From the IMG/VR virus record IMGVR_UViG_3300033273_000069, positions 1 through 55,280 of that record: a stretch of 55,280 bases of DNA; one strand, 5' to 3'. This DNA is from a virus. Of this stretch, positions 1,974 through 36,192 are shown piece by piece. Every line of letters begins with the position of its first letter. Within the stretch, counting starts at the first letter, position 1. Both the position numbers and the translations under genes were made by a program. The notes below the pieces were generated by a model, which was not told where the DNA came from, did no database searches, and saw only the letters and a program-made list of their open reading frames with translations.

Positions 1974-2002
1974 TTGACACATCGTACGTTGTGTCGGATA
2001 CA
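1974..2002 (+). promoter_or_regulatory. Sigma70-like promoter with internal near-palindromic operator
   Basis: TTGACA (1974-1979) is a perfect -35 box. It is followed after 17 bases by GATACA (1997-2002), a plausible -10. The sequence from 1976 to 1995 is a near-perfect 20-bp palindrome (GACACA, T, CGTACG, T, TGTGTC; only the two bases flanking the centre fail to pair). It lies between the two boxes and is a candidate operator. The promoter would serve the CobS/CobT-like genes. Confidence 0.6.
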
Positions 2003-2030
2003 CTACAACCTGACAACCATGAGGTATCAA

Positions 2031-3614
2031 ATGTCAAACTCAACAGTTACAGTTCAAGAAATCCTTAACACCCACAATGCTCGTGATACGCAGCGTATCC
2101 TACGAGACTACATCGTCCACGAAACCCGTCACTTCCATGACGAGTGGGCGGCTATTGTCGAGGCAGCCAAGAACTCTCGGCTCGTCAATCATGATCACCC
2201 AAACTCTCGCAAGATGCGTAGCGTAAGCCAGTCGCAGATACTGGATCGCATGAACGTGGACGCGTTGGCTATCATGATTAACCTGATGAACGAGGGTGAC
2301 TACGCAGAAGCACTGGAAACACTCAAGTTCCAGTTCGAACACAGAGGCGTAGATCACATCACGATCTGGCCCTTCTACTTAGAAGCGCCCGACCTTGATC
2401 ACGTTGTGTTGAACGTAGACGCGGACGACGTAACGCCCGACACCGATGGTGAGGCCGAGGCGGAGCCAGAGGCCGAGCCTTCTGGTGCGTACAACGTGAA
2501 GGACGATATTGCGTCGGCTGCGAACGTGTTGCTACGTGCCGCAACCAATGGCGAGATGGACGATCTGCAAGCGTTGCTCGATGAGGTCGTGGAGCTACGC
2601 AACAAGCCTAGCTTCGCACCGCTTCCACAGGTGCAAGCGTCTGGTACGATCCCATTCGGTGCACCCATACGCAAGAATGCGCAAGAGGTGTTCGGCATCG
2701 ACAGCGAACTGCTCGACTTCGACATCAACACGTACGAGTGGGACGGTGACAATCCGTTGGTGCCACGCAAGGACGAGAACTACATCTTCAACGTGGACAA
2801 TCTGCACGACGTGTTGTGGGCCAAAGAGAACGGCGAGAACGCATGGCTGACTGGTCACACTGGCACAGGCAAGTCCACGTTCATCGCTCAAGTCTGTGCG
2901 TACACTGGCTACATGATGGTGCGTGTCAACATGGACAGTGCGATTGAACGCCCTGACTTCGTTGGTTCGATGGCTGTCACGACCGATGATGATGGCAACA
3001 CAGTCACACGGTTCAAGGACGGCATCTTGCCCAAGGCGATGCAGCAACCATGCGTGTTGTTGCTTGACGAGATAGATGCTGTACGCGCTGACATCGCATA
3101 CGTGATGCAGCCTGTCCTTGAGGGTCAGCCGTTGCGCTTGCTTGAGGATGGTGGTCGTGTGGTTCACCCACATCCTGACTTCCACATCGTCGCTACTGCC
3201 AACACCACTGGTGCAGGCGATAGCTCGGGCATGTACGCAAGTGCGGTCAAGGTTCAGTCTCGTGCGCTTATCAACCGCTTCAGCACGTTCGTCAGTGTGG
3301 GCTACCTACCCATCGACGACGAGATGCAGTTGGTTCGCAATGCTGCGCCCAACATCAGCGACGAAGCGATGGGCATGATCAAAGACTTCGTGAGTACGTA
3401 CCGCTTGGGCTTCCACGATGGAACGATTGCGACACCCATCTCGCCTCGTAACACCACCACGATTGGCAAGTACGTGAGCAGCATCGAGGGCCGTGTCGGT
3501 GCGACCGATGCAGTACGTCGTGCGCTCAACATGAACGTGATGCTGACCGTCGATGAGGGCGACGCCATTGCCGTGACAGGCATCATGGATCGCATCTCTG
3601 GTCAACCATTCTAA
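2031..3614 (+). CDS. cobS: CobS-like MoxR-family AAA+ ATPase
   Basis: The start chosen is ATG 2031, preceded by GAGG at 6-base spacing. A longer frame to 1974 would start inside the promoter. The 527-residue protein has an N-terminal region of about 180 residues with an acidic linker (EAEAEPEAEP), then an AAA+ core with Walker A GHTGTGKST (275-283) and Walker B CVLLLDEIDAV (D346, E347). The following ATANTTGAGDSSGMY and RALINRF segments match the CobS subunit of cobaltochelatase closely. In bacteria CobS works with CobT and CobN to insert cobalt into hydrogenobyrinate diamide, and MoxR relatives act as chaperones with VWA partners. The next gene supplies the VWA partner. Whether it is a chelatase subunit or a chaperone is unresolved. 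Confidence 0.9.
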   Translation: MSNSTVTVQEILNTHNARDTQRILRDYIVHETRHFHDEWAAIVEAAKNSRLVNHDHPNSRKMRSVSQSQILDRMNVDALAIMINLMNEGDYAEALETLKFQFEHRGVDHITIWPFYLEAPDLDHVVLNVDADDVTPDTDGEAEAEPEAEPSGAYNVKDDIASAANVLLRAATNGEMDDLQALLDEVVELRNKPSFAPLPQVQASGTIPFGAPIRKNAQEVFGIDSELLDFDINTYEWDGDNPLVPRKDENYIFNVDNLHDVLWAKENGENAWLTGHTGTGKSTFIAQVCAYTGYMMVRVNMDSAIERPDFVGSMAVTTDDDGNTVTRFKDGILPKAMQQPCVLLLDEIDAVRADIAYVMQPVLEGQPLRLLEDGGRVVHPHPDFHIVATANTTGAGDSSGMYASAVKVQSRALINRFSTFVSVGYLPIDDEMQLVRNAAPNISDEAMGMIKDFVSTYRLGFHDGTIATPISPRNTTTIGKYVSSIEGRVGATDAVRRALNMNVMLTVDEGDAIAVTGIMDRISGQPF

Positions 3615-3642
3615 TCAATCTCAACATTCACAGGAGACACAC

Positions 3643-5622
3643 ATGTTTTCACAAAATTCAGTATCCGCATTGGCGACAGAGTTGGAAAAACTTTCTCGCA
3701 TCATGGGTGGCAAAGACATACGTACCCAGTTCAAGGGCGACCGTGCGTTCACCGATGGTAAGTTCATCAATGTTCCTGCGATGGACTTGACCGCCGAGCT
3801 TGACCCTACCCACCAAGCAATCATGCGTGGCTACCACATACATGAGGTCAGCCACGTAACAGACACAGACTTTGGCATGTTCCAGAAGCGTGGCATCAAC
3901 AAGATCAAGAGCATCTGGAACTGTTCCGAGGATGTGTTCGTAGAACGCAAGGCGATCCAGAAGTTTGCGGGTGCCCGCAAGAATTTGCAGGAGACAGTGC
4001 AACACGTACTGGCGAACGAGCAACAGTTCCGCAAGGACAATCCTGATCACCCACAGGTCAAGCGTACACGTTGGTGGTCTGAGATACCCTACGCTGCGCT
4101 TCAGCAAGCACGTAAGCAGATGGGGTACGAGAGCGAGGCACTTGATGAGTACCTGTCGGGCTTACCCAAGGAGTTGGCTCGTGAGGCTCGCAAGTTTGCC
4201 AAGCGTATGATCGAGGCTGACAGCAGCGAGGAAGCAGTGAAGGTTGCTCGTGCCATGAAGCGACGCATGGACAAGTTGGGTACACCCGAGGAAGAGCAGC
4301 AAGAGCAGCAGCAAGACGGTGGCATGGCTACGTCATCAGACGATGGACAGCAGCAAGGCGATGGTGGCGACGACAACACCAACGACGAGACTGACGACGA
4401 CGGTGACGAGCAAGGCGATGGCAATCGTACGAACGACGACGACAGCGACGGCGATGATGAAGGCGACGACGGCAGCGGCAGCGGCAGCGGTGACGGCGAC
4501 GAGGACACTGACGACGACGGCAGCGACGACAGTGGCAGCGACGGCGACGCTGATGGTGACGACGGTGGCGACGGTGATGCTGACGAGGACTTCGACCTTG
4601 AGGCTGCGCAAAATCGTGCCGACGAGGCAATGCAGGAACTGTTTGGCAAGTACAACACAGGCACGAGCGACATCAACCAGAACCTTGCACCAATCTTTCG
4701 TACGCATGTCGAGTATTGGGATTACCTACATGACTTGTACCACAATACACCCAACACGAAAGAGGCTCGTGAGTTAGCTGACGTTTGGCGTCAAGAGGTG
4801 ATAGATATTACTGCCAGACAAGCTGCGAAAGAGCACACAAACGATGCCAAGCGGTTAATCAGTGACGATGTACGCCAGTACAGCGCACGACTTGCTCGGT
4901 TGTTGTTGGCGCAGGAAGATCGTCGTAATGAGGGCGGTTACGCAAGCGGTCGCATTGATCGTCGTCGGTTGAGCCAGTTGGTTGCAGGCAACACCAATGT
5001 GTTTGCACGTCCACATGTGACACGTACGAGCGAGACACGCATCATGATTGCGGTCGATGGTTCGGGCAGCATGAATGCATCACGAACAAGACAGGCAATA
5101 CTCGCAATCAATTCGTGCCTTGGTCGTGCAGGGGTCAAGTTCGATATTGTCGAGTGGACGCAGACCACACTCAGAAGAGGCAAAGGGAACACAGCCCGAA
5201 ACAATACTGGCCTGATCTATCACAAGACTGCGAGTGATAGCTGGCGCACGATTGACACTGAGTTTGACTTCCAACCCGTCGGTGGCAGTACGCCCACGTA
5301 CTCTGCGATACTGTCGGTGTCACGCATCATGGCTGAGTGGACTGAGCCTCGTCGCATCTGTTTGTTCGTGACTGATGGGGTGCCGAACGGTTGGACAGTC
5401 GGTGAAGGCGAGGCTGTTGGTGAGCACGTAAGTGCCATGCGCAAGGCCGACATCGAAGTGTACGGCATTGGGATCGGCACCAACTGCAATATCACCCAGA
5501 AGATCATGACGGATATGTTTGACACGCACGTTGTGCATACCGACTTTGAGAAACTTGGCGAGACGATGCTTGGCGGCATCGAGCGCCTATTGATTGCAGA
5601 GGGTCACGCTCATGCCGCGTGA
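3643..5622 (+). CDS. cobT: CobT-like VWA-domain protein
   Basis: ATG 3643 follows CAGGAGACACAC. The 659-residue product has an N-terminal helical domain containing HEVSH (67-71, an HExxH-like motif seen in this family). A very acidic Asp/Gly/Ser repeat stretch follows at about residues 230-325, then a C-terminal von Willebrand A domain. The MIDAS residues are visible: DGSGSMN (D472, S474, S476), the Thr of GGSTPTYS and the Asp of FVTDGVPNGW. This matches CobT, the metal-binding partner of CobS. Directly downstream of the CobS-like ATPase, it probably forms the same ring complex. The low-complexity acidic linker is encoded by GAC/GGC-rich repeats that create long antisense frames. Those are shadows. 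Confidence 0.88.
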   Translation: MFSQNSVSALATELEKLSRIMGGKDIRTQFKGDRAFTDGKFINVPAMDLTAELDPTHQAIMRGYHIHEVSHVTDTDFGMFQKRGINKIKSIWNCSEDVFVERKAIQKFAGARKNLQETVQHVLANEQQFRKDNPDHPQVKRTRWWSEIPYAALQQARKQMGYESEALDEYLSGLPKELAREARKFAKRMIEADSSEEAVKVARAMKRRMDKLGTPEEEQQEQQQDGGMATSSDDGQQQGDGGDDNTNDETDDDGDEQGDGNRTNDDDSDGDDEGDDGSGSGSGDGDEDTDDDGSDDSGSDGDADGDDGGDGDADEDFDLEAAQNRADEAMQELFGKYNTGTSDINQNLAPIFRTHVEYWDYLHDLYHNTPNTKEARELADVWRQEVIDITARQAAKEHTNDAKRLISDDVRQYSARLARLLLAQEDRRNEGGYASGRIDRRRLSQLVAGNTNVFARPHVTRTSETRIMIAVDGSGSMNASRTRQAILAINSCLGRAGVKFDIVEWTQTTLRRGKGNTARNNTGLIYHKTASDSWRTIDTEFDFQPVGGSTPTYSAILSVSRIMAEWTEPRRICLFVTDGVPNGWTVGEGEAVGEHVSAMRKADIEVYGIGIGTNCNITQKIMTDMFDTHVVHTDFEKLGETMLGGIERLLIAEGHAHAA

Positions 5623-8100: not shown

Positions 8101-8249
8101 ACACCGAAAGTTAAATGAAGATTTTGGGAAAACCCTTAGCAGGGGAGCGCCTTCGACCACTCGGCCACGTTTCCATGGACGGTAATACGCAGTAGGCGTT
8201 TGATGTGCAAGAGAGTTATTCATCTTTCTTCCTACTTAACCTTCGGTGT
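8101..8249. repeat. attP arm-like inverted repeat flanking the tRNA-Ser core
   Basis: ACACCGAAAGTTAA at 8101-8114 is the inverted partner of TTAACCTTCGGTGT at 8236-8249 (13 of 14 positions), centred on the tRNA-like core. Two direct copies of AGTTGTGT (8073-8080 and 8257-8264) and a hairpin CCAAGAGT/ACTCTTGG (8068-8088) flank it. The arrangement fits integrase arm-type sites. Confidence 0.55.
8133..8174 (-). other. attP: Probable attP core: 5' half of tRNA-Ser(GCU)
   Basis: Reading the minus strand from 8174, the sequence gives an acceptor-like GGAAACG, TG, a D-arm GCCGAGTGGTCGAAGGC, and an anticodon stem-loop CCCCTGCTAAGGG (anticodon GCT). This is the 5' half of an alphaproteobacterial tRNA-Ser(GCU). 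After the anticodon stem it diverges, with no variable arm, T-arm or pairing 3' acceptor strand, so it is not a working tRNA. Lying about 100 bases beyond the integrase stop codon, it is best explained as the attachment core identical to the host tRNA gene. The phage would supply the 5' half on integration. Confidence 0.75.
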
Positions 8250-8272: not shown

Positions 8273-9283
8273 CTACGCAAGGGACATCACGGCTGCTTTA
8301 TGATCTTCGAAGGTCGTGTTCATGTAGCGCATGACCATCTTTAGATCGCTGTGCCCAAGTAGATCGGCGATCACTTTGGGCGGTACTCCGTTACGCGCAA
8401 GACGCGTAGCGAATGTGTGTCGTAAGGCGTAAGGCGACTTGGTGATACCAAGTTTGTCAGTGACCTTGCGCCAGTGGTATCCGATCTGTTTGTTCGTTTC
8501 GAAGGCGCGGCCTTCGAGTAAGAACGGATACGTGTGCGGTGGCGGATCGCTCCGTGGGATTGTCGCGAGTGCATTGTCGTTTAGGGGCACCCGACGCTCC
8601 CTGAGTTCTCCGTTTGCGCCCTTATACGAACCGAGGACTACAGTGTTGTTGCTGAAGTCTACGTTGTCGTAGGTTAGACGCATCGCCTCAATCGGACGCG
8701 CACCAGTATGCAGAAGGAAGTTGCAAAGGCGGCGGATGTCAGGATGCAAGTCGGGAAAGATTGCGTCGATCTCTTCTTGCGATAACGTATCCGTTTTGTG
8801 TTTACCTTCGCGCGGCTTCTTCAGCTTTATGGTGTCGCGTAACCCGAGGGATGCTGCAAAGTTTAGAACACCTTGGAGTTGGTTGAGGTCACGCCTTATG
8901 GTTGAGTTGGCGTTGCCCTTGTTGACATGCTTCTCTTCGACATATTCTTCGATGTCGTTCAAGTCGATCTTGTTGACTTGGAAGTCTCCGAAATAATCTA
9001 CGAGACGCATGACGTACTCCTGTGTTGACTTGCTGCTCCCAGTATGGGGCGACTTGAGATAGCGACGAGCGACTGAACGGAATTTGTTTTGTGCTCCGTG
9101 TATGGATTTCTGTCCGAGCTTGATGTGACCCGCTAGAACTTTTGCTTCGTACTCCGCTGCTAATTCTTTTGCGTGTACGTAGTCGGCTGTACCTAGTGAG
9201 TGTCGGACGCGAAAGCCTTGCCAGTTGCCAACCGCGTAGTAAAATTTGCCACCGCTGCGCTTCTTTACTTTGAAGAGTGGCAA
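8273..9283 (-). CDS. int: Tyrosine-type integrase
   Basis: A 336-residue tyrosine recombinase. The N-terminal arm-binding-like region (1-60) is followed by a SAM-like core-binding domain (about 65-150) and a catalytic domain. Catalytic residues are R196 (TGARPIEAMRL), K221, R288 (ALRHTFATR), H311 (LLGHSDLKM) and the nucleophile Y320 (MVMRYMN). The usual His of the HxxR box is Tyr here (Y285-A-L-R288), an accepted but less common variant. The adjacent tRNA-Ser fragment is the likely attP core. The gene starts three bases after the stop of the LuxR-type regulator, suggesting cotranscription and joint control of integration. Confidence 0.95.
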   Translation of the reverse strand: MPLFKVKKRSGGKFYYAVGNWQGFRVRHSLGTADYVHAKELAAEYEAKVLAGHIKLGQKSIHGAQNKFRSVARRYLKSPHTGSSKSTQEYVMRLVDYFGDFQVNKIDLNDIEEYVEEKHVNKGNANSTIRRDLNQLQGVLNFAASLGLRDTIKLKKPREGKHKTDTLSQEEIDAIFPDLHPDIRRLCNFLLHTGARPIEAMRLTYDNVDFSNNTVVLGSYKGANGELRERRVPLNDNALATIPRSDPPPHTYPFLLEGRAFETNKQIGYHWRKVTDKLGITKSPYALRHTFATRLARNGVPPKVIADLLGHSDLKMVMRYMNTTFEDHKAAVMSLA

Positions 9284-9286
9284 GCG

Positions 9287-9826
9287 TTAGTCCTCCTTTC
9301 TGTATAGTGCTGCGTGTGGGTCAGGCACATTTGGATCGTACGTTCGTGCCCAGTCGATTGGTATGCCGCCTGAACTGCGAGCGTATTCGGTAGGGTCTAC
9401 GCGGTCGAGGATGTCGTTAAAAACGAGTGCTGCTTGCCCTCTAGTTTTTGTGCCGACCTTCTTACACACGGCCCTTACATGTAGCTTAACAGTATTCTCT
9501 GCGATATTTAGGACGTCCCCAATATTTTTATTGGCCCATCCCTCTATGAGTAGTTGTGCAGTTATGTGCTGCTTGGCAGTCATAGTTCGGAGCAAAGAGA
9601 GTTCGGCGGGGGACACGGTGCTATAAGCATCTGATATAGACGGCGCATCCTTACCCTGCTGTAGGAGAAGATTAGTGATAATGTCGAGCTTGGCTTCAAG
9701 ACGAGCAAGCTCAAAGCGAAGTGCAGTATTTGTACTAGACATTGTATCATTTTGATCCGTGATAGTTGATGATTGATGACGCCCAAGTTGTTGTGGGCTA
9801 TCTGGAATGTAGTGTTTATGATACAT
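9287..9826 (-). CDS. LuxR/GerE-type HTH regulator
   Basis: A 179-residue protein. An N-terminal segment with a short coiled coil (LRFELARLEAKLDIITNLLLQQ, 37-57) precedes a GerE/LuxR HTH at about 82-137 (MTAKQHITAQLLIEGWANKNIGDVLNIAENTVKLHVRAVCKKVGT), including the hallmark ENTVKxH and a C-terminal helix. There is no autoinducer-binding or receiver domain. The start at 9826 has AGGTG upstream. The internal methionine at 9742 is an alternative if the TTGACA at 9836-9831 is a promoter. It lies immediately upstream of the integrase on the same strand, so it probably controls lysogeny or integration, possibly autoregulating through the palindrome at 9838-9855. Confidence 0.85.
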   Translation of the reverse strand: MYHKHYIPDSPQQLGRHQSSTITDQNDTMSSTNTALRFELARLEAKLDIITNLLLQQGKDAPSISDAYSTVSPAELSLLRTMTAKQHITAQLLIEGWANKNIGDVLNIAENTVKLHVRAVCKKVGTKTRGQAALVFNDILDRVDPTEYARSSGGIPIDWARTYDPNVPDPHAALYRKED

Positions 9827-9856
9827 CTATGTCAACACCTTTCGTTTACGAAAGGC
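9807..9856 (-). promoter_or_regulatory. Lux-box-like operator and promoter of the LuxR-type gene
   Basis: CCTTTCGT, TT, ACGAAAGG (9838-9855) is a perfect inverted repeat. In a 20-base frame it carries CT at positions 3-4 and AG at 17-18, the conserved positions of lux boxes. Next to it on the minus strand is TTGACA (9836-9831), with TACATT 18 bases on. The palindrome abuts the -35 as a lux box does. Confidence 0.55.
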
Positions 9857-13717: not shown

Positions 13718-13747
13718 AAGCGCCCCACTTGGAGGCGCTTTTTTTTT
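13718..13747 (+). terminator. Rho-independent terminator reading rightwards
   Basis: AAGCGCC (13718-13724), a 9-base loop, GGCGCTT (13734-13740) and a run of nine T residues. The T-run is on the plus strand, so it stops rightward transcripts from the gene-free interval, against the end of the primase-helicase gene. CTCCAA upstream can pair with TTGGAG in the loop, a possible alternative fold. Confidence 0.75.
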
Positions 13748-15695
13748 ACTGCGAGTTAGATACCCACGATGCGGTTGATGTTTCTCTTATTGGCCTTGTC
13801 CATTCTTCTACTGTGGATACTGGACGACCAACCCGATCAGCAATCTCCAAGTCAGATAACGGTGGGCGAGTTGCCCCCGATGCATCAGACCACTCCTGCG
13901 CAAAAGTAAGTGCGCGTTGCTTGGCTGTCTTAGGCGCAATGACAGACACCGTATCGTCAGTCTGTGATGATGCGAACGCCATGTTGTAGACAGGCTCGTG
14001 TGCGTCTGACCATTCACGTACCTTGCCGAAGCGAAGCTGCATCATCACATCGAGGCGCTTGTGCTCTGCGTCAGCGGCTGCCTGCATATCTACGAACGGA
14101 GATGCGGGGATTGTCTCTTCATAGATACCCGCCTTTACGTCAGCCGTTTCCTTGTCCCAGAATACTTGCGTGACTTTGATCTGGGTTTCGAGGACGGTCA
14201 ACTGGTTCGAGCTACCTGCCTCACGACCTGATGCTGTGCCCTCACTTGGCTTGTTGCTGTGGTGTAGTAGCCATACGCATAGCCCTGCGTTCCGTAACTT
14301 GAGGCAGAGTTGGTTGATGTACCCCCACTGTTCTGCTGAGTTCTCTTGCAATCCAGGGAAGGCCGAACGGATCGTGTCAATCACAACGTGCGTAGGCTTC
14401 GTAGCTTTGATCCACTGCTCGAAGTTCTTGATACCCGCTTCGTTCATCAGGTTCATGTCTCGGTCGTCATGGAAAGGTGCCCAGATCATGAAGTTATTTC
14501 CTGCATCACCGAAGCTACGTTTAGAGCGATCTAAAAACTTAGCGATGTTTGCTCGGCTGTTCTCGAAGTCGAAGTACAAAACTTTCGATGTCTTGTTTAG
14601 ATCAAATGGGCCGAAGCGATACTGCCCAGAGCTTGCTGCGTACAGTAGGTTTCGTACGAACATTGACTTACCGTGACCAGAGTAACCGAACACCTGAATG
14701 ATTGTCCCTGTCGTTGGCGCAATCGGGTCAATGAAAAACTCCCTTTGATCTAAGTAGGACTGTAGCGCGAAAAGGTCGCTCGTAGTGATCGGCTTCAGGA
14801 GGCGTGGCTTTGGCTGCTCTGGTACCACTTTCTCGGGCGCTACGTTGCCCTTGCGTACCTCATTCTCCTCGGCTCGCTCACACATCTGGCGAACCTTGCT
14901 GTCCTCGATGGGGTTCTGGAAGAATGCATCCATGAAACGATACGCACCATCGACAAGTTCTTCGCCGCGATCACCCTGCCCTGCAAGTGACGATATGTAC
15001 TTATACAGACGATCATCACGACCGTTGCCACCACCATCAGGAAGTTTGCCAACACGCGCCACCAGTTCTTCAGTGCGCTGCCATATAGGCTTGTCTACAT
15101 GTACGTCATTAAGAGACATACCCTCAAAGCGAAATGAGTTGAAGTCTACCACATTTGTTTGGGTGTTCGATGTCCCAGCCAGATCGTGTAGGCGTGGTGC
15201 GTACACTGGAAGATCATCAAAGTCGTGACCCTGTAACATTTCCCACTGGTAATTTTTACTAGGCGGTGCAAGGACGTAACCCTTCGATCCACGTAGATCG
15301 AGGCCGTCAACACGAGGCCAGTCCCGACCATTGCCATCTGCACCAACACGGTTCTTGATCCACCCTGATCCCTTGGGGAACTTGAAGTAGAAGTGCCAAC
15401 CCTTCTTCGTGCGTACAGATATAGGTGTGGACGTCAGCCCATACTTCTTTGCTTCATCGACAGCATTTTCGTTGTCGCAATCTACAACGATAATTTCCGA
15501 CATCTCACCTGTAAGTATGGCGATGTTTGCATTGGGCCACTTCTCGAACCAATCAATCACCTCTTCTTCTGTCGGCATTACGTGGTTGTCTATGTAATGC
15601 CCCCACCTTATGAGCGGCTTCTTTGTGTCAGGGCTGATCGGTATTACCGCCCACCCGTAATCCAGATACTCTAGTGCCGCGTCCAGTATTTCCAT
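13746..15695 (-). CDS. Bifunctional primase/polymerase-helicase (Prim-Pol plus RepA-like ATPase)
   Basis: A 649-residue replication protein. Residues 1-170 are an archaeo-eukaryotic Prim-Pol domain (ALEYLDYGWAVIPISPDTKKPL, metal-binding D72-C-D74 in VVDCDNENA, then GWHFYFKFP). Residues about 320-520 form a RecA-like hexameric helicase domain with Walker A GYSGHGKS (337-344), Walker B HVVIDTIRSAF and the later LLHHSNK sensor. The C-terminal 60 residues contain an HTH-like segment (LSDLEIADRVGRPVSTVEEW). It would prime and unwind at the phage origin while the host supplies the polymerase, since no polymerase gene is visible. Confidence 0.9.
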   Translation of the reverse strand: MEILDAALEYLDYGWAVIPISPDTKKPLIRWGHYIDNHVMPTEEEVIDWFEKWPNANIAILTGEMSEIIVVDCDNENAVDEAKKYGLTSTPISVRTKKGWHFYFKFPKGSGWIKNRVGADGNGRDWPRVDGLDLRGSKGYVLAPPSKNYQWEMLQGHDFDDLPVYAPRLHDLAGTSNTQTNVVDFNSFRFEGMSLNDVHVDKPIWQRTEELVARVGKLPDGGGNGRDDRLYKYISSLAGQGDRGEELVDGAYRFMDAFFQNPIEDSKVRQMCERAEENEVRKGNVAPEKVVPEQPKPRLLKPITTSDLFALQSYLDQREFFIDPIAPTTGTIIQVFGYSGHGKSMFVRNLLYAASSGQYRFGPFDLNKTSKVLYFDFENSRANIAKFLDRSKRSFGDAGNNFMIWAPFHDDRDMNLMNEAGIKNFEQWIKATKPTHVVIDTIRSAFPGLQENSAEQWGYINQLCLKLRNAGLCVWLLHHSNKPSEGTASGREAGSSNQLTVLETQIKVTQVFWDKETADVKAGIYEETIPASPFVDMQAAADAEHKRLDVMMQLRFGKVREWSDAHEPVYNMAFASSQTDDTVSVIAPKTAKQRALTFAQEWSDASGATRPPLSDLEIADRVGRPVSTVEEWTRPIRETSTASWVSNSQ

Positions 15696-15901: not shown

Positions 15902-15930
15902 TTGCAATAAACTTGAATGTATCATATACA
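15902..15930 (+). promoter_or_regulatory. Promoter of the recombination operon with overlapping operator
   Basis: TTGCAA (15902-15907), 17 bases and TATACA (15925-15930). TGTAT-CAT-ATACA (15918-15930) is a 13-base palindrome covering the -10. The Cro-like gene diverges from here, so this interval is a compact control region. Confidence 0.6.
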
Positions 15931-15988
15931 CTACTACAACACAACCTCTGATCTGTACTTACAGCATCAAATTTCAAGGACAAACATC

Positions 15989-16408
15989 ATGGACGAGATT
16001 ATTTTCGGTGACACCCCTATACAGTTAGCGCCAGTTCATCCTAAGCAGGACAGGCTAAAGGGTCATGCTGCCCAGTATGTCGAAGCCCTTGCAAAGATTG
16101 AACATCTAAAGGCCACAACGGATTACCTTAAAGAAATACTCCTGAGCGATCTACCTGAAGAGGCGGGAGAATATCCCATAGAAATGGACGACGGGCGTAC
16201 GCTTATGATTAAGATACCCGAGAGGTGGTCATGGGATAAAAAGTTGTTGAAAGAGACATACGAAGTTGCAGGGTTGCCTGAGTGTGTCAGCCAAAGTTTC
16301 CTCGTTGATCGGAAGAAGTACGAAGCCGCTCCCGACAACGTGAAGGAAGTGCTGAGAAAAGCACTAACCATCGAATGCGGCTCACCCACAATCAAGGTTC
16401 AGACATGA
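15989..16408 (+). CDS. Unknown protein of the recombination module (139 aa)
   Basis: ATG 15989 follows CAAGGACAAACATC. An upstream in-frame start at 15917 lies inside the promoter and is rejected. The product has a helical N-terminal half with Leu repeats (YVEALAKIEHLKATTDYLKEILLSDLPEEAGEYPIEMDDG) and then a conserved-looking IPERWSWDKKLLKETYEV and SFLVDRKKYEAAPDNVKEVLRKALT. Similar proteins occur directly before Sak4-type recombinases in other phages, so a recombination-accessory role is likely. The stop overlaps the recombinase start (ATGA). Confidence 0.7.
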   Translation: MDEIIFGDTPIQLAPVHPKQDRLKGHAAQYVEALAKIEHLKATTDYLKEILLSDLPEEAGEYPIEMDDGRTLMIKIPERWSWDKKLLKETYEVAGLPECVSQSFLVDRKKYEAAPDNVKEVLRKALTIECGSPTIKVQT

Positions 16409-17172
16409 AAATCACACCGCTAAAGACTAATGACGCGACCGTATCGGAAACGTCAAAGACTTTGGTGTATGGGCCGCACGGATCGGGTAAGACTACCCAG
16501 TGCGCGAACTACGCCAAACGATACGGTAAGGGGTTGATCCTGTCAGGAGAGAGTGGACTATCCTCAATCTCTGACATGGCTATCGACTACTTACCTTTCT
16601 CGACATTTGATCGAGAGCCAAAGGAAGGACAGTATTCCTTCAAGCAACTGATGCAGTACATCAACTCTGACGACTTTCGCAAAGAGGATTACAAGTGGAT
16701 TGCAATCGACAGTGCGACAGAACTTTCGCAGAAATGTTTTGCGGACGTTGAAGCTGAGACAGCAGGATCACAAAACAACTTCGAGAAGTGGAGCGTGTAC
16801 GAACGCAAGATCACATTCGCTCTGAAGTGGGTGCGCGATCTGCCGATGCACGTACTGATTACGGCTCTTGCTAACGAAGAGAACGACGATAACGGCGTCA
16901 CAAATTACTGGCCCATGATGGTTCAGAAGAAGGTGCAGCGGTTGATCCCTGCCCTCTACGACAACGTGTTCCCACTTGTACGCAAGACATCGGAGCAAGG
17001 CGGTAAGGTTTCTGTTCGCAGATACTTAATTACCGACAACGTAAATGGGTGGCACGGCAAAGTACGCGACCCGCATCGTCGCCTCAAGCCCTTCGAGGAA
17101 GTGGACGACGTAACTGAACTTCTATCCCTCATTTACATGTCGGATGCTGAGTACAACAAACGGAGCGAATAA
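16405..17172 (+). CDS. Sak4-like RecA-fold recombinase (AAA_24 family)
   Basis: ATG 16405 overlaps the preceding stop. The 255-residue protein has Walker A GPHGSGKTT (23-31), Walker B KWIAIDSATEL (about 101-111) and the AAA_24-type flow SKTLVYGPHGSGKTTQCANYAKRYGKGLILSGESGL. Sak4 proteins are minimal RecA-like phage recombinases that anneal single strands and depend on a cognate SSB, and an SSB is encoded two genes downstream. The protein probably drives phage recombination, including circularisation or concatemer formation. The C-terminal third (GWHGKVRDPHRRLKPFEEVDD) is typical of these proteins. Confidence 0.85.
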   Translation: MKITPLKTNDATVSETSKTLVYGPHGSGKTTQCANYAKRYGKGLILSGESGLSSISDMAIDYLPFSTFDREPKEGQYSFKQLMQYINSDDFRKEDYKWIAIDSATELSQKCFADVEAETAGSQNNFEKWSVYERKITFALKWVRDLPMHVLITALANEENDDNGVTNYWPMMVQKKVQRLIPALYDNVFPLVRKTSEQGGKVSVRRYLITDNVNGWHGKVRDPHRRLKPFEEVDDVTELLSLIYMSDAEYNKRSE

Positions 17173-17173
17173 A

Positions 17174-17386
17174 ATGGAAATTAAAATCCTCAGACTACCA
17201 CAGGTAATCGAGTACACAGGACTATCCCGTTCATCCATCCTTGTGATGGCTAAAGAGGGAGAGCTTGATTTCCCGAAGCCTGTGAAGATTGGGAAGCGAG
17301 CGATGGGGTGGAGAAGCCATGACATCGAGGCATGGTTATCAAATCTCGCAGAACCAAAAGCATATGGAGAAAACGAAAATGACTGA
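17174..17386 (+). CDS. AlpA-like MerR-fold regulator or excisionase (70 aa)
   Basis: ATG 17174 begins MEIKILRLPQVIEYTGLSRSSILVMAKEGELDFPKPVKIGKRAMGWRSHDIEAWL, a textbook AlpA-family winged HTH with the GWRxxDIEAWL wing-helix ending. There is only a weak ribosome-binding site, so coupling to the upstream gene is likely. AlpA-type proteins act as excisionases or as activators of prophage excision. With an integrase and attP in the genome, excision control is the likely role, though the gene lies in the recombination operon rather than beside int. Confidence 0.85.
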   Translation: MEIKILRLPQVIEYTGLSRSSILVMAKEGELDFPKPVKIGKRAMGWRSHDIEAWLSNLAEPKAYGENEND

Positions 17387-19803: not shown

Positions 19804-19826
19804 GGAGGGGGCTAGTAGCCCCCTCC
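19804..19826. terminator. Strong hairpin between convergent operons
   Basis: GGAGGGGGCT, loop AGT, AGCCCCCTCC: a perfect 10-bp G/C-rich stem containing the stop codon of the giant minus-strand gene. T-runs are poor on both sides, so it may act as a bidirectional block rather than a classical terminator. Confidence 0.55.
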
Positions 19827-22800
19827 AAATCCGCCTCCGTATCCAGAAGATTTCTTGCCGCCTGCACCGCGTACACCCGCGACCGTATCGACAATACCTT
19901 CTTTAGCCCACGATACTCCGCCGAGAACTGGTACGCGCCCTGCAATTTCACGAACTGCTGCGCGACGCAAACCATTAGTTTCGTCATCATCCCACCAAGA
20001 ACGTGCACCTTGCATCACTGTTTGAGCGTCGTTGAATAGTCCGACAGTTGGGCCGCCGATAGTTTCAAGAGTACGTTGTGCACCGTACGCACCATTGTCT
20101 GTTTGAGATGCAATGTCGTACATCAACTCACCAACTAGACCTAGACCGCCGAGTGCAACCATACCATCGAAGTACCAACCCATAAGGATGTCCAAGTCCT
20201 CGTTCTCTACGAACGCCTCAGATACGGTTTCCGACAACTTGCGTTCACGTAGCGCAAACTCACGATTGTCCTCTCCACCACGACCTTGAACAACATCTTT
20301 TGCTCCGACCGCGATGCCACCCATTGCAGGGCCAGCTACGAGAAGGGCAGCCAGTGGGCCAAGGCGGTTGTCGCTCTGACCTACGAACGCTTTAGCGAAG
20401 TTCGCGCCACGCTCTGCAACTGTATCTCCACGGAATGCCTCACCCGCTACTGTGTTAATCAAGCGTGTCATCATCAGTGGGTATGACTTCAACTGGAAGG
20501 CAATCGCGCCAAGCGGCGTCTGCGCCCACAGAGGGATGTCATTTGGGTTTGGCGTGAAGATCATCTGGTTTGTTAGCTTGATCGTGGACGATGCCAACTT
20601 GTTCGCAAGTGGATGTTCTAAACCGCTGAAGCGGCTTTCCATGATCAAATCCATATCGAGTGATTGATCCTCGACGAACTCAGCTAGACCCTCTTCCCGT
20701 AAGATACGGCGAGCAATCCTACCAGCCCTAGAATTTGGACGGTTTTTCAGGATTTTGTGCTGCGCTTTTAGGTGTTCGTACGAAACTGCACCCGCAACGT
20801 CACGCATCATATCTGTCCAGGGGGTCAACAATGTAGCGTTAAAGAAGCCCGTCATGAACTGCGTACTATCTACACCATGAGCAACTGTCAGACGTTGGTG
20901 TACTGCGTTCTCTGTTGCAGCACCGATGTTGCGTATCATGTCGCGGTACTCTGGGTCGCTCGCAAACTTGTATAGAGACTTAGTGTACGCCCCAATGTCA
21001 CCTGAACGGATCAATGGAAGGATCAAGTCACCAAGTGAAGTTAGCGTTGTGAAGCCCAGCAGTGTCACCGCGTTCACACCACGCAACCACTTGGACGCAT
21101 TCTTGAGCGAGTACGTACCGTGCACTCCGTCGATTGGACGGCGCATCGCTGCGTTCATAAAGCCCTGTGCGTGCTTGAGGTTGTCGTTAGATGCGAGCTT
21201 TGTCAGCCCTTGTGTATCAGCTAGTGCACTTGCGATAGCTTTGGCTCTCTTGCGGAAGTTTTCACGAAGCATGTTTGCATCAGGATTTTGCGAAAGCTGA
21301 TCGCCAAGCAAGTCCATAATGTTTGCCTCGATCTCAGCAGCAGTCGAACCACGCTGCGCCATTTCGATTAGCTCGTCAGCTTTTATCTTTGCACCATCTT
21401 TGTTCTTGATTGGTGCGTAGAAGTAATTGTTGTCGAACTTCATCTCCTTGACGCCGTGATCTGATCCACCTGAACGAACATAGGTCGCAGTGATAATCTT
21501 GTTCGTGGATAGTAGCTTACCGATAACCTCACGCGGGTTCATCGGCTGCGCAACAATCGCCATGTAGTCGTGATACCCGTGTGCGCCGACGCCAAACTCT
21601 TGTGCAATGTCGATACGATGTTCGACGTTATCACTGTATTTGGTCATCGCTACGAGAATATCGTTCTCCATAAATACAGCAAGACTGTCGGGTGTATCAA
21701 AGTCTGTAAACTCTGGATACTCATCAAGTCTAATTACACGATTGTAGTCTAGGTGATCAGACTGATCGCCTGCCTTATCAGACATACGCTTGAAGTTCTG
21801 TGATGGGTTCGACAGGACGCCATCCTCATCAATTATGCGCTGCATAACCCGACGAGCAGACTTCTCAGCTTTCTCTGCGTTGCCGCCACCTTTGCGTTCA
21901 GCCAAGAAGTAACGAGTTAGTCTGCGTACAAACTCTTCTGGGTCAGCTTCGATCAAGTCTTTGCGCCAGATTTGAGGAACATAGTTCTTCTTAATCTCAC
22001 CAACAATAGCGCCAGCAGCACGCATACGGCCTACAGCCTCATCCAGATACCCGCGTGCGTGGTCATATACAGCACGCTCTGCTGGTGTCAAAGATGGAAC
22101 TTTATTGGCGTCACGTAGCGCACTCATCACACGAAGATGACTTGCAGGTTGGGTCAATCGACGCTTCGGATTGATGCCCAATGCACCCATTGCACTTTCC
22201 GCCATCATCTGCGGGCCAGTACGCCAGTAGTTGATGAGTTTATTATTGCTGTCAGGTAGCTGTTTCAGCAACTTTGTTAGCGGGATAACGAATTTACCCA
22301 TGCGGGCGTTCGTACGCTCGAAGTGCCCGCCACTTCCGTCCTTTGGCTCAAAGAAGTTAGCTAGGGTTTTAAGCCCAGAGCGATCCATAATTTTTGAGTT
22401 TGTACGTAGTGGATTAAATATGCTGGACTTGCGTATCTCTGCGGCTGCGTCTGACGGCATACCACGCCCGCGTGCGACAGAGATCATAGCTTCCAGCGTA
22501 CGCGCTGGGACGCCTGCTTCTTCTAGTTCTGTTGCTGCTTGACTAAAGATACGAACAGGATCACCACCAGATGATGCCGCCTGCATGATGCGACCGTTTA
22601 CTGAGTGTACGCGCGATGCTTCACCCAACACTGGTCTTGCATCTTCGAACACATCGCTACGGATGCCGCGAACATTGCGAGAAGAAAGCATGAGCTTCTC
22701 ATCGCCTAGCTCGATACTTGTAAAGCCAGCATCGCCCATCGCTTTCTTGAACTTGCGTACGCCACCTAACTTAGAGACAAGCTCTCTTGCCATATCTTCT

Positions 22801-25800
22801 GGTAGCTGCAAGCCACGCATTGCAGCAATTTCTTCTGCAACTCTATTGCGACCCTCAGATTTAAGGTGGCTAATAAGAGCCTTAACGATTGGGTGACGAA
22901 CCGACATATCGCCACTGAACACGGCAGGCTGTACGTCGCGGATAAACACTGGGTCTGTGTCTGCGCTTACGTTTATACCCATGCCTGTAAGTTCTTCGGT
23001 TAGAACATCGTCTAGCGTGTAGAGCTTGTCGATGTACTCGTTTGAAGAGTTAGGGTCGATACGTGCAGCATTGACTTTAGCGCGTGCCATTTCTAGCGCA
23101 TCAACCAAGTCCTCTACGTTTTCTCTCATTTCGGGAGACGCCGAACCAATGATGTCGTCACGACGGTTCTGTATTGTATTCATCGGCAAACGGGTGACGT
23201 AAGTGCCCCGACCAAAGACACCATCTTTTTGACCGTTGGTGAAATGCGGAACCATGTTGTCGTTAGTAAAGTCACGAACCGCCTCATAACCCGCCATTGT
23301 GTAGTCAAGCATGATTTCGTTGGCGTGGTCAATCGCGTACTCAGCAGGAACTGTGTCGCCATAGCGAGCACGAGGGCTGCCTTTTCTAGTACCAGAGGTG
23401 CCAATCATGTCGCCGTAGGCAGTGATAGCCGAGAAGCGTTCGCGTGCCGCTGTACTGGTTATAACGCCGTTCAGAACGTATCCAGCAGCCTCTAGTATTT
23501 CGTTGTCCAACTCCTCAATGAAGTCATCGAACAAGTCCATGTCCTCTGCGTCCATAACATTCTGGATTGCCTTGACTTGAGGGCTTCCGACATCGAGGTC
23601 AGAAACTTCAACAAGAATATCGCTGAATAACTTTTCTGGCGGAATGCCAAGGACTGCACTCGCCTTTGACATGACGTTGCGGGTAGCATGAGAAACGGCA
23701 TGACTTGCGTACAGCCCCTCACCTACAAAAGCTATTGCCTGCGAGATGTCGTCGCCACGTACAAGGTTCGTACCAACTGTACGAACGGCTTTCCTGTACG
23801 AACCGTACGAAGATGCATCGACTGACTGCGGTAAGTTCTCCGCTCCCAGGCGTGCAAGGCGTGCAGTAATCGTACGTGATACAAGTTCAATACGGTTGTC
23901 ACGGTGTGTGATACCACGAAGATACTCGCGCATCTTGACCGTTGCATTCTGCGGAATGCCATTTTCGAATGCTGTACCCGCATCTTGCGCCTGCTCAATA
24001 ACGATTGCCTTCTCGACGGCATTCGCTTCTTTGTTACCTCGTTTTGCAGCACGGTTCTGGTGACGAGTTCTAATTAGGTGCTTGATGATATTCATCGCCT
24101 GCTCTGGCGATGCACCCAAGCCTTTAATCGTTTCCTTGTCGGCAGAGAACGACAGCCCTAACACAAGCTCTGGCTTCTGGGCTTCAACGGCTTTGCCTTT
24201 GTTGCCACCGCCTTTTACCTTCTCCTTAGACTGCCAAGTGTTAAAGATCGCCTGCTCTTCTTCGGTTAGCGTGATGTCTTTAACTTCTGTTTGGACAAGG
24301 TGGTAAACACGTCTTGCCAGCTTGTTACCAAACTGTGTGGGGTTCCCGTCCTTGTCGATCTGACGACGATACTCAGACAGTGCTTCTATCAAGGAATACT
24401 TGTTAGGATCGCCGCCCTTGGTGCCCTTTACGACCTGACCCTTAAACTCAACCTTGTTAGATTTCGCTTGGGCGCTCATGATCTGTTCGAGAGACTTCTT
24501 AAAGTTGCGACGTTGTACGTTTACCGCACGCTTCATCTCTTTAGAGCGAGAAATCTTCTCCATCTTTTCTGGAGTAAGCCCATTGATCTCACGACGCGAA
24601 AGAATTTCGTCTGAAATCTTGTACTCAGGGATGTCACCACCCTCGACCTTCATAAAGACTTCATTGATCTGCTCCAACTTGCCGCGTGCGTATTTACCCA
24701 AACGGCTGTTCCATAGCTCGATCATGTCTTTAGGCATGTCTGAATGGTAGGTAGACCCGCCAACAACCATGTCATCGCCGACTTGACTTACAGTGTAGTC
24801 AACTGATGCAGTAATCTTGTTGATCTCTTCAGCAAGCGCACGCATTTGTCTGTGGCCTTTGATCGCTTGGAATGCACCTGAATAGCTTTCGATAAGTGCA
24901 CGATCTGTAGCAGTTGCCCGACCCTCACGCGTCGATGCGATTGCACGCTCACGCTTTGTCATGGCAATACCGCTAAACGCGGCTGATAGTTGACGAGAAG
25001 CTAGACCCATTTTCTCGATGTCATGCATATCAGGATAACCCTGCATTGCTTCCTCGAATGCATGTATCGCTTGGTTGATCTGGTCGTAACGAATACGAAG
25101 AGATGCACCAAGTTTTGTCTCTGGTGATTTGGGGTTCACAAAGCGTACACGACGAGCTTCGTCTTTATCTGCAATCATCTTCTCGAAGATTGGTTCCAAC
25201 TCGGGATCTACAATGTGACGGTTAGTGATGTGCTTCCAAAGTTTCTGGATAATTTTCGTAGCTTTTTCGAACACGCTCATAGGCGCAATCGGAGCTTCGT
25301 ACTTCTTGTGCGCCCATAGAGCGAACTGGTTAGCAAACAACTCACCTGGGTTTTGCTGCGCGTTAGACATGCCAGCAAAGTTCTGACCGTCTTGAACCAT
25401 TGGAGAGTACGCATCTAGCAATGTACCATCTACGCGGTCAGATACGAAGCCTCCGTCGAACTTACCGTTCTGGTCGTAGTATTTACTTACTGACTGCCAA
25501 AACTCTAGTTTCAGTTCAGGAGTAAGTAGGTTCATGTACGCCCAGTGACCAAGCTCGTGCATGATTGTAAAGGATGCAGATACACCCGTCTTTTCGCCAC
25601 GATGGTCTAGTGTTTTCCCGTTTAGGAAAATGTTATTGAAGTCTGGGCCGACATTACCTGTCGCTGCATCTGGGCCAGCCTTACTAAACTCTTGCATTCT
25701 CAACGGACGGCTTGCGAACAACCCCTGTACGTCATCTGGCAACAAGTCAGATAGGTTGTAATCTTCGAGGGGTTTGATTACAGGCGCAGATGACTTCGGT

Positions 25801-28800
25801 ACAATCGCTCGGAACATACGCTCGATGTGTGCAAACGTAGATGGGTTCATCTTGTTTGTCACTTTGCGTAGCTGCTTCACAGACTTATCAATGTCCTGAC
25901 CAGGCATACGCAAGCCCAGTGGAGCCTCTTTGCCAAGTACGTGTAGGTACGCAGTGATCGCATCGAGGCGACGGTTGAACGGTATTTCCTGCTTCGTACC
26001 TGGAATGTCCATGCGGAACGATGCATTTTCTAGGTCTTTGAGTACGTCAGCAAGTTCAGCAATAGTGATGCGCCCCTCTGACAAAAACTCATCAACTGTG
26101 CTTTCCATGATCATCTGAGAGTTTACCATGCGTGCGCCGATAAACAGGCGTTGCGCAATGGATTTACCCTCTGGTGTTGAAGCTAGGCTCTTGATGTCTA
26201 CTTCAACATCAAACGCCTCTTCGTACTCCATAGGAGCTTTCGGAAGATTGTCAGCAGACTTCTTCGGTACAGGCTGTGCACCGATGTCATTATTCTTGTC
26301 GAGTGGCTCGAACACAGACTTGATAATGTCTCGGTCTGTTGCCGCGCTTGGACGCTTCCCGTCTATCTCTCTTGGTATGTAACCGATATTGAAGTTCTTG
26401 ATGTCGCCCTTACCCAACATCTCTTTTAGACCAGCACCACGCTCTTCTTGAGCTTTACCTAGTACGCGAGGTTTTTGCTCAAGGGTCTTGGGAAGAAGTA
26501 CAAGGATTTTGTCATCACGTACAGCGGGCACATCTGGAAGCTCTTGCGATGTGGTTACGTCGTTACCCTGACCATCAACAACTTTCTTAGTAGCTGGGCC
26601 ATCTACGGTAACACCACCCTTACGGGCTTTTGCCTTTAGGATTTCTGTTTCTTCTTCAAACTTATCGAGGTCGCCATCTTTTGCGAACTTAGCTTCTGCC
26701 TCGTCCATCATACGCTCGAAGTCCTCGCGTACAGAGATGCCCTTCTCGTTCGGGTCTACGATCTTGTACTTCTCTTCTTGCTTGATACCCATGCGGGCTT
26801 TTGCAAGTGCTTCTGTTTCGTACGTGTCGAAGCGTTTGTACCCAGTCTTAGGGTTGACTGTCATAACGCCGAACACTTCTTGACCTTCGGAGGCAGGAGC
26901 TTTCGCGCCATTGATGTGCTGACCTGCGCGGGCTTTGTACGCGTAAATGCCTTGTACTACACCTTTAGTTGCTAGATCGTTTTCTGCTTTGGCGCGTGCA
27001 AGCTCACGAGTTTCGTTCTTACGAAGGAAAATGTCGTACCCTTCAGTAATAGTGTACCCGTCACTTGTTTCGCGGCCTGGGCGCAAGAAGGATTGTATCT
27101 TGCCAACTTTCTTCTTTGTCTCACCAGTTTTAGGGTCGATGTAGTCAGTAAGTACGCGACCAGCGATCTTGTCCATTTCAAGAACTTTGCCTGCACGGGC
27201 GGTACTGCCGCCAATGCCGTACGAAGTCTCGCCACCTTTCTGACGTGCACGCGTAGATAGCGTTTCCTTGAACTTAGCAATCTCTTGCTGGTTCTTAAAT
27301 GAAATGTACGTTTCGCCTACGTCACCGTCTAGCTGATCAATACGACGACGGATTGCAGCCGCGACCTCATTCTTGACGGGGGTGCCATCGTCCGCAGCCG
27401 CCTTCAAGAACGCAGAGAAACGGTTGCGTACAGAGTTGACCTTGAGGGTTTTGTAGAAACCAGACTTCTCAACGATGTCGTAAAACAAAGCATCAGCATC
27501 GTCAGAAATTTGTGCGGCTTCTACGTCTGTATCTTTTTTGGCTATAGCATCTTCAGCTTTAGCTAACTTAGGGTCTGTAAAGGAGGCATCATCTTTTCGA
27601 ACAGGCGTACCATATACTTCGTTTACTAGCTGCTTTGTATAAACAGAACCTGTCCTGCCGTTGAAAGTTCTTCCTTCTCTGGCGGCTATGTGTATATTTA
27701 TAGCCTGCCGACCCGCAGGAGTTATTTTGCCATCTTTCATATGGGCTTTATCGGCTGCAAGAATTTTGCCAATTTCAGCTTTAGTAAGGGGCTTATTGTT
27801 TGTTCCGTTTTTTTCGTTTGCCTCTTTTACTTTGTTGCCGTCTAAGTGGGATTTTACGGTTTTTTCAAGCTGTGCAGTCCAACCACCTTTAGTATCCGTT
27901 GAATACTTGACGGCTTTTACATCTGGGATTTCTGGAACTTTTGGGACAGCAGGAGCCGCAACGTCGCCTGCCTTTACCTCGCCGCCTGTATCTCCTTGAC
28001 CTTCTGCGTTATCGGTGTTGTCAGGTGTACCTTCTGCCTTATCACCACCTTGATCCCCTGCCGTATCTTCTGCGGGTGGCTCTTCATTTCCAGTCTTTGT
28101 CGAGTTAGGAGATGCTTTCTTTTTCTTAGCTTCGTCAGCTTTCCTCTGAGCTTCGGCAGCCGCTTCTGCTTCTGCGATACGGTTGCTACGAATGTCGGCA
28201 GCATCTAATCGGTTTACCCGCTCGATGTCAGTAGACGTTAAGATTTCTTGGAACTTCTTGTACTTCTGATCGTAGTCAGCCTGTAACGCACTTGTATTAG
28301 AACCTTCAGTCTTGGCTGTCTCTAGCTGCTTGGCAGTATTCTCTAGTTCATTTTCTAGCTGTACTGCACGCTGTACTGCCGCTTGTACGTCAGCACGCTC
28401 TTTCTCGATATTAACAAGTTCTTCTGCTGCATCTTCGCGTGCTTCAGGAGGCAAAGTATCATCAGCTACTGCGGACTGAGCCGAACGCTCCATGTCGTTC
28501 AGTTCAGTGATACGAGCATTTGCTTTCTCACCGAATGGTGTGCCTTCTTTCCATTCAAGCGCACGTTGTGCAGGAGCCTTAGAAGCTAGAGCACCGATAC
28601 CCGCACCGACTGCGCCACTGAACACACCTTCGATTGCACCAGATGTGGCGATTTGAGTAGTGTCGTACTCGTCTCGTAGACCCTGCTGGATTTGGCGAGA
28701 CTGCTGTAGGGCGTCAAAGCTAGAACCGATACCCGCGCCTAGAGAACCTTCAAGCAAAGCACCGCGTTTTGCGCCTGCCTTCATTGCGGCTTTCGTAGCG

Positions 28801-29249: not shown

Positions 29250-29277
29250 CGGGTACTCCATTTAACCTGATCGTCAC

Positions 29278-34949: not shown

Positions 34950-36192
34950 CCATCATCATTTGCTTTGCTCTGCGTCTTGCATCCCTACGCAACACCCGAT
35001 TGGTGTAGCGGTGCTCGTTCGTTTCAGGGCGACGACCGCGACGTTTCATTTCGTCACCGATCATATCCGCTGCCTGAAGTGCCTCGGCTGCCAACGACCT
35101 GTCGATCTCCATGTAGCGACGCGCTTCGTTGTAGTTGTGCATCATCTCTTCTTGAAGATCGCGCTCTGTACGCTGACGATAAAGTTTTGCCGATCCCATT
35201 CGACCAAAGAACCCTGCATTCATAGCTGGGTCGCCAACGTCATAGATATAACTGAAAGCACCCTTGGCATCAGCAAGGGCGTCATAGTAACTTTGCTGAT
35301 CAGAGCCATACGAAAGCTCAGTATATCCCGTTGCATCGTCACCGAGGATCAAGCTGTAAATGCCGTCGCGGCCCTGCTCAATCATTATCGAGCCAGAAAG
35401 ATTATCCTGCATATTTCGAGGTAATGAAGCACGATAGCTTTCCATCGCATTCTTCGACATTTCAGATGTCATGTACGAACGGATGTCGTCGTGCTGTCGC
35501 TGTAAGTGCTCGGGAGTTTTATTACCACGCATGTCAGACGAGAGGTTTAATTTATCGTCTACGTATGCAAGTCCAGATGTCGCCATAGGGCCACCAATGT
35601 CTAGGGTTGCCCTGCTCCCAGCAACAGAAAGAAGTTGGCGCATGTCAGCCCACTTAAATTCATCTTGCGAGTAGTAAGCAGGACGCCGTTTATCGTACTT
35701 AAATTCTGGAGGATTATTTGGGTCGTAAGTGTAGCGATAGTTATTACCGTACTTACCCTCTGATGTGCCTCCTTCCAGCATGTCCACGATAGAGGCTTCT
35801 TCTGGCGTTACATGGATAGGCTGCTTTCCGTCAGCGCCCATGTTTTGTTTGATGATGTCACCGTCCATATCCATAATCCTATGTATTTCACGAGCGCGAT
35901 TGTTAAGTTGCTCGCCGCTGTCGTACATGGGCCAAAGACCCTGATCTATTTCATCACGCCAGTAGTCGTACGCTTCGCCCTCGGTGAGCGGACGATCTGA
36001 GTTTACGTCAGGCACCCACCCTGGGACTGATACGAACTTTCCTGCATTCGGCCCGTCGTCGATACGTATGCCGAGTGAGTGAAGTGTGATTGGCAACCCG
36101 CCCTCGTCCAATCCAACACGACCAGTGCTTGCTGAGTTATTGTGATGCTCAACAAGCCGCTGTTCGAGTTTGGATAGACCTTCATCAGACAT
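34945..36192 (-). CDS. Unknown virion-block protein (415 aa)
   Basis: ATG 36192 overlaps the stop of the upstream fibre gene. The 415-residue product is hydrophilic, rich in Asp, Tyr and Met, and has no signal peptide. An N-terminal segment with LHSLGIRIDDGPNAGKFVSVPGWVPD resembles virion peptidoglycan-related or tail proteins only vaguely. The C-terminus is basic and helical (RRGRRPETNEHRYTNRVLRRDARRRAKQMMMD). I do not recognise a family. It is expected to be a tail or internal virion component from its place between the fibre and the core genes. Confidence 0.6.
   Translation of the reverse strand: MSDEGLSKLEQRLVEHHNNSASTGRVGLDEGGLPITLHSLGIRIDDGPNAGKFVSVPGWVPDVNSDRPLTEGEAYDYWRDEIDQGLWPMYDSGEQLNNRAREIHRIMDMDGDIIKQNMGADGKQPIHVTPEEASIVDMLEGGTSEGKYGNNYRYTYDPNNPPEFKYDKRRPAYYSQDEFKWADMRQLLSVAGSRATLDIGGPMATSGLAYVDDKLNLSSDMRGNKTPEHLQRQHDDIRSYMTSEMSKNAMESYRASLPRNMQDNLSGSIMIEQGRDGIYSLILGDDATGYTELSYGSDQQSYYDALADAKGAFSYIYDVGDPAMNAGFFGRMGSAKLYRQRTERDLQEEMMHNYNEARRYMEIDRSLAAEALQAADMIGDEMKRRGRRPETNEHRYTNRVLRRDARRRAKQMMMD

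Follow-up and report, generated by a model that had tools for sequence, protein, structure and literature searches.

A conserved 18-bp dyad at three putative promoters, and its most likely Cro/YdaS-like binding protein, in a CRP-810-type phage with a GerE regulator-integrase operon

A LuxR family protein is encoded by Roseobacter phage CRP-810 and 107 related genomes; a lysis-lysogeny role has already been proposed for it, and integration of CRP-810 has been demonstrated (PMC11288001). In the published view, LuxR couples the lysogeny of these phages to quorum sensing; Cro, repressor, operator and promoter are all unmentioned in the main text of that paper. Phage LuxR-type receptors (PMC6456758) and the LuxI/LuxR modules of Phaeobacter prophages, which also belong to marine Rhodobacteraceae (PMC13345283), likewise tie a GerE helix-turn-helix (HTH) to lysogeny genes, and the proteins described there bind or respond to autoinducers. 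In the PaaR2/YdaS/YdaT region of CP-933P, YdaS is a Cro analogue encoded beside replication genes, and the footprint region holds 18-bp palindromes over divergent promoters (PMC8630535); the CP-933P immunity region has no GerE protein.

The stretch of DNA analyzed here (the window), 55,280 bases long, is an entire IMG/VR virus record. Its closest annotated relative is CRP-810, whose integrase gp14 comes directly after gp13, a product with the annotation LuxR family regulator. The two phages have the cobS/cobT, primase and AAA genes in common. As in the CRP-810-type phages (PMC11288001), the LuxR-family gene of the window lies directly before the integrase gene, and cobS-cobT, luxR-int, primase and AAA ATPase genes are present in synteny (Table 1). 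By this synteny the window phage belongs to the same family, and we take it to be a temperate phage that infects marine Rhodobacteraceae. However, the luxR proteins of the two phages are only 34% identical and, in contrast to the CRP-810-type phages, the putative attP of the window matches tRNA-Ser(GCU), not tRNA-Thr. Because this 42-bp stretch, located 3' of the integrase gene, has exact matches in nine genomes, all of them from Rhodobacteraceae, the host is probably a marine member of that family. A 95% match to the attP core is also seen in two Rhizobium phages. Scanning the window for Rfam families and tRNAs gave no match.

Table 1. Computed gene calls and putative regulatory features in the window
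Feature	Position	Strand	Evidence or remark
Putative operator O3, TGTGTCGGATACACTACA	1990-2007	+	covers -10 of putative cobS promoter
cobS-like and cobT-like genes, downstream of O3	2019-5622	+	AAA_5, CobT/VWA matches; tblastn to CRP-810 cobS
Putative attP core	8133-8174	-	42 bp identical to 5' half of Rhodobacteraceae tRNA-Ser(GCU)
Tyrosine integrase	8273-9283	-	PF00589 1.1e-21; phrog_1 4.2e-56
GerE-only regulator gene (luxR), 151 aa	9287-9742	-	Pfam GerE 1.7e-10; about 30 related sequences; AF2 pLDDT 86.5
Putative 5'-leader hairpin of luxR-int mRNA (GCCCA...TGGGC)	9774-9798 (approximate bounds)	-	z -3.96 in window
Putative luxR-int promoter	9806-9835	-	TTGACA (9835-9830), 18 bp, TACATT (9811-9806)
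Putative operator O1, TGTATCATAAACACTACA	9808-9825	-	covers spacer and -10 of luxR-int promoter
Palindrome CCTTTCGTTTACGAAAGG	9838-9855	.	just upstream of luxR-int -35
Prim-Pol/AAA primase	13746-15695	-	PF09250 1.1e-25
Cro/YdaS-like repressor gene, 85 aa	15628-15885	-	Pfam YdaS 1.4e-4, below cut-off
Putative operator O2, TGTATCATATACACTACT	15918-15935	+	between Cro-like gene and rightward early genes
Rightward early genes after O2: small ORF, AAA_24 ATPase, AlpA/HTH_17 gene	15989-17386	+	
AlpA/HTH_17 gene, early operon	17144-17386	+	PF05930 1.4e-15

A gene for a GerE HTH protein adjoining the integrase gene had been recognized from the sequence alone, and both Pfam assignments bear this out. 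The integrase gene starts directly after the luxR stop codon on the same strand and is preceded by an AAGGAGG ribosome-binding site; luxR is the first and the integrase gene the second gene of a luxR-int operon. In the majority of luxR-bearing loci spanning both genes, luxR likewise sits directly upstream of int, and the two are probably co-transcribed. A longer, 179-aa open reading frame starts within the promoter, whereas the alignment of relatives sets in at the ATG at 9742, so the 151-aa reading is most likely the correct one. The luxR-int promoter and the divergent early and cobS promoters described below were assigned by consensus only; the TTGACA and the TAC core of the former are kept in 12 of 12 aligned sequences. 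Just 3' of this promoter, the leader contains a hairpin of 5-9 bp (in the window and in the leaders of L002-L117), the sequence of which varies freely among relatives while the pairing is mostly kept (mean z -2.0 for 19 distinct leaders).

The GerE HTH occupies residues 55-107 of the 151-aa product, with a Pfam score (PF00196) above the cut-off. A coiled-coil-like N-terminus had also been noticed, and the AF2 model, built from alignments of the window and IMG/VR loci only, without a CRP-810 row, indeed shows one long helix (residues 2-29) there, followed by a short disordered link, the GerE HTH and a C-terminal tail with the conserved pattern SGG-P-DW... Only this 28-residue helix and the linker lie ahead of the HTH. 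The protein therefore has the C-terminal GerE/LuxR HTH of LuxR-type receptors but not their N-terminal autoinducer-binding domain (PF03472): the GerE match is present in 32 of 32 family members, whereas neither PF03472 nor a receiver domain was recognized in any of the 32, and a PF03472 search of six genomes gave no match, with the E. coli positive control being matched. In contrast to the receptors of PMC6456758 and PMC13345283, then, no AHL-binding domain was found in either the protein or the genome of the window phage, so the proposed reading of quorum-sensing signals or targets is unsupported, although the protein may sense a signal through an unrecognized domain. It is most likely a constitutive, ligand-independent DNA-binding protein of the lysogeny operon, and probably dimeric. 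No relatives were found in the contigs of the genome collection.

The sequence-only reading had further proposed that this protein is the lysogeny switch, that it binds a lux-box-like palindrome upstream of its own -35 element, and that it may read quorum-sensing targets. The palindrome itself was confirmed: its arms, CCTTTCGT-TT-ACGAAAGG, occur in this arrangement once in the genome, 2 nt upstream of the minus-strand TTGACA, and the CT-N12-AG letters are present. Both the position and these letters speak for such a role, as do one-mismatch copies in the three closest relatives. However, the window contains 14 inverted repeats with arms of 8 bp or more and spacers of 0-4 bp, as opposed to 4.2 in shuffled sequences, so the palindrome by itself is weak evidence. 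Of the 21 first-round relatives compared, just the three with 88-89% identical proteins retain the left arm, and they do so with one mismatch. No relative with a protein identity of 80% or lower still has this arm, although the recognition helix of the GerE protein, ENTVKLHVRAVCKKVG, stays the same as far as 65% identity; the palindrome was accordingly rejected as the main conserved operator. Nor was it found in host-type DNA: three Rhodobacteraceae genomes that carry the attB sequence lack it, even when one mismatch is tolerated. The loss of the left arm, the frequency of such repeats and the absence from these genomes make the palindrome an unlikely main operator, and the window lacks the conserved lux-box-like operator that a LuxR-type receptor would have at its own promoter. 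Together with the missing AHL-binding domain, this leaves a GerE switch acting through the palindrome very unlikely. Most relatives down to about 65% identity retain the right half of the palindrome, CGAAAGG, which may play a role of some kind in the nearer ones; copies of this half-site are scattered in the window, none of them at O2 or O3. No target site of the GerE protein's own was found in this analysis.

Instead, the luxR-int promoter shares an 18-bp dyad with two other regions of the genome. O2 overlaps the -10 elements of both putative divergent early promoters, and O3 lies at a putative cobS promoter (TTGACA at 1974-1979, a 17-bp spacer and GATACA at 1997-2002). Copies of the dyad are present at equivalent places in relatives of the window phage. 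A palindromic matrix trained only on O2-type sites gave O2, O1 and O3 as its top three scores in the window; these also head the list in G001 and G002, and high-scoring sites occur in CRP-810 and G013, too, both at O2 and ahead of luxR. With a matrix built from the O2 sites of another clade only, the top three window sites were again O1 (22.0), O2 (21.0) and O3 (14.0). None of 300 shuffled sequences reached the score of O1 or O2 with this matrix, whereas 10% reached that of O3; O3 alone is thus not significant against shuffles and rests on conservation. Sites above 12 bits were found in 75% of 88 distinct cro upstream regions, a partly in-sample figure, as compared to 1.8% of null windows, and in 50% of 28 distinct luxR upstream regions as compared to 3.6% of null windows. 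The other half of the luxR upstream regions have no site above 12 bits, some of them through motif drift.

The gene beside O2, the first of the primase operon, encodes a Cro/YdaS-like protein; the primase gene overlaps and follows it. The match to Pfam YdaS (22.1 bits) is below the cut-off of 30, and 25 of 50 relatives of the protein match this family. The best PDB matches of its predicted fold were Xfaso 1 Cro, P22 Cro and N15 Cro, with TM-scores by target of about 0.7 and Foldseek E-values all above 0.08; a PDB sequence search with the profile of the protein returned nothing, and in 295 host-family genomes the profile gave one weak partial match and no clear prophage. The gene is present in nearly every locus that covers its place. 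The statement that no CI-like repressor is obvious elsewhere was therefore wrong in substance, given this gene and that of the AlpA/HTH_17 protein. The arrangement resembles that of CP-933P (PMC8630535) in having a candidate YdaS-family Cro analogue beside replication genes and 18-bp palindromes overlapping divergent promoters. Unlike CP-933P, the window phage has no recognized CI-like gene, has a GerE protein, and has a second, putatively regulated operon, luxR-int, 6 kb away. As would be expected of a Cro/YdaS-type operator, the 18-bp dyad lies over the putative divergent promoters at its own locus (O2) and is reused at other phage promoters (O1 and O3).

Binding of the dyad by the GerE protein, which was our initial hypothesis, was dropped in view of the luxR-less genomes that keep the dyad and of a covariation test. 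Three near-complete genomes without luxR (G007, G008 and G009) encode no GerE domain anywhere and yet retain the O2 dyad. Among luxR-less phages, the dyad precedes int in two of three lineages: it is directly upstream of int in G007 and G009 but not in the G008 type, and phages of the L175 type likewise lack it at int. In 17 hand-chosen groups, operator distance was associated with the helix of the Cro-like protein when the GerE helix was controlled for (partial r 0.60, p 2e-4), and in the same hand-chosen groups its association with the GerE helix, with the Cro helix controlled for, was close to zero (partial r -0.10, p 0.75). These comparisons point to the Cro/YdaS-like protein encoded beside O2 as the most likely binder of the dyad. 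They also bear on the suggestion that the GerE protein is a CI-like partner that shares O1, O2 and O3 with the Cro-like protein. Such sharing has precedents, as lambda CI and Cro, and PaaR2 and YdaS (PMC8630535), bind the same or overlapping operators, and luxR does sit with int in a lysogeny operon. However, a dyad that is kept in genomes without a GerE gene and that shows no independent association with the GerE helix makes a shared operator unlikely.

A lysogeny role of the GerE protein, as already proposed for the CRP-810 family, is nevertheless plausible because luxR is first in an operon with int; what did not hold in the idea of a LuxR-family switch is the operator, since the conserved one tracks the Cro-like repressor. 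Some int-bearing relatives lack the GerE protein, which is thus accessory within the phage family. The position of luxR directly upstream of int, and their probable co-transcription, in most luxR-bearing loci covering both would also suit an accessory recombination factor (Xis/RDF-like) for the integrase that is not a transcription regulator at all. The GerE fold, however, usually belongs to transcription factors, several int-bearing relatives do without the protein, and the AlpA/HTH_17 protein of the early operon is a better candidate for the excisionase, so that we regard a recombination factor as distinctly improbable.

The explanation that we consider probable as a whole combines a Cro-like repressor acting through O1-O3 with a ligand-independent, accessory GerE regulator of lysogeny. 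According to this scheme, the Cro-like protein would bind all three operators; it would repress luxR-int during lytic growth, and would also repress the operon that encodes it, the rightward early genes and cobST. Made together with the integrase, the GerE protein would serve as the accessory regulator on the lysogeny side. As the Cro-like gene is the first gene of the primase operon, action of its product on the lytic side is favored over that of a CI-type maintenance repressor. The circuit looks like a repressor-type lysis-lysogeny switch of the ordinary kind, to which an uncommon additional regulator has been added, and not like a quorum-sensing system. A broader reading, which we offer tentatively and with some doubt, is that a widespread marine phage family has a two-protein switch in which the partner of a Cro/YdaS-like repressor is, in place of a CI-type repressor, a pared-down, signal-independent GerE protein that is produced along with the integrase and acts as the regulator on the lysogeny side. 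For the CRP-810-type phages, one putative 18-bp operator at three putative promoters, a named candidate repressor and a GerE protein in which no AHL-binding domain is recognized together offer an alternative to the published link between lysogeny and quorum sensing, and caution against reading a "LuxR family" annotation in phages as quorum sensing.

Further operator-like sites were detected with the O2-trained matrix at positions 9590 and 14360 of CRP-810 and at 35867 of G013, located after int and elsewhere; these are possibly extra members of the regulon. The luxR-less phages of the L175 type (L175, L177, L179 and L190) carry a different dyad, TGTACCCCACGTTGTACA or TGTATCCCACGTTGTACA, upstream of int. 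Elsewhere in the window, an open frame of 3149 codons (19812-29261, minus strand) probably encodes a giant virion protein.
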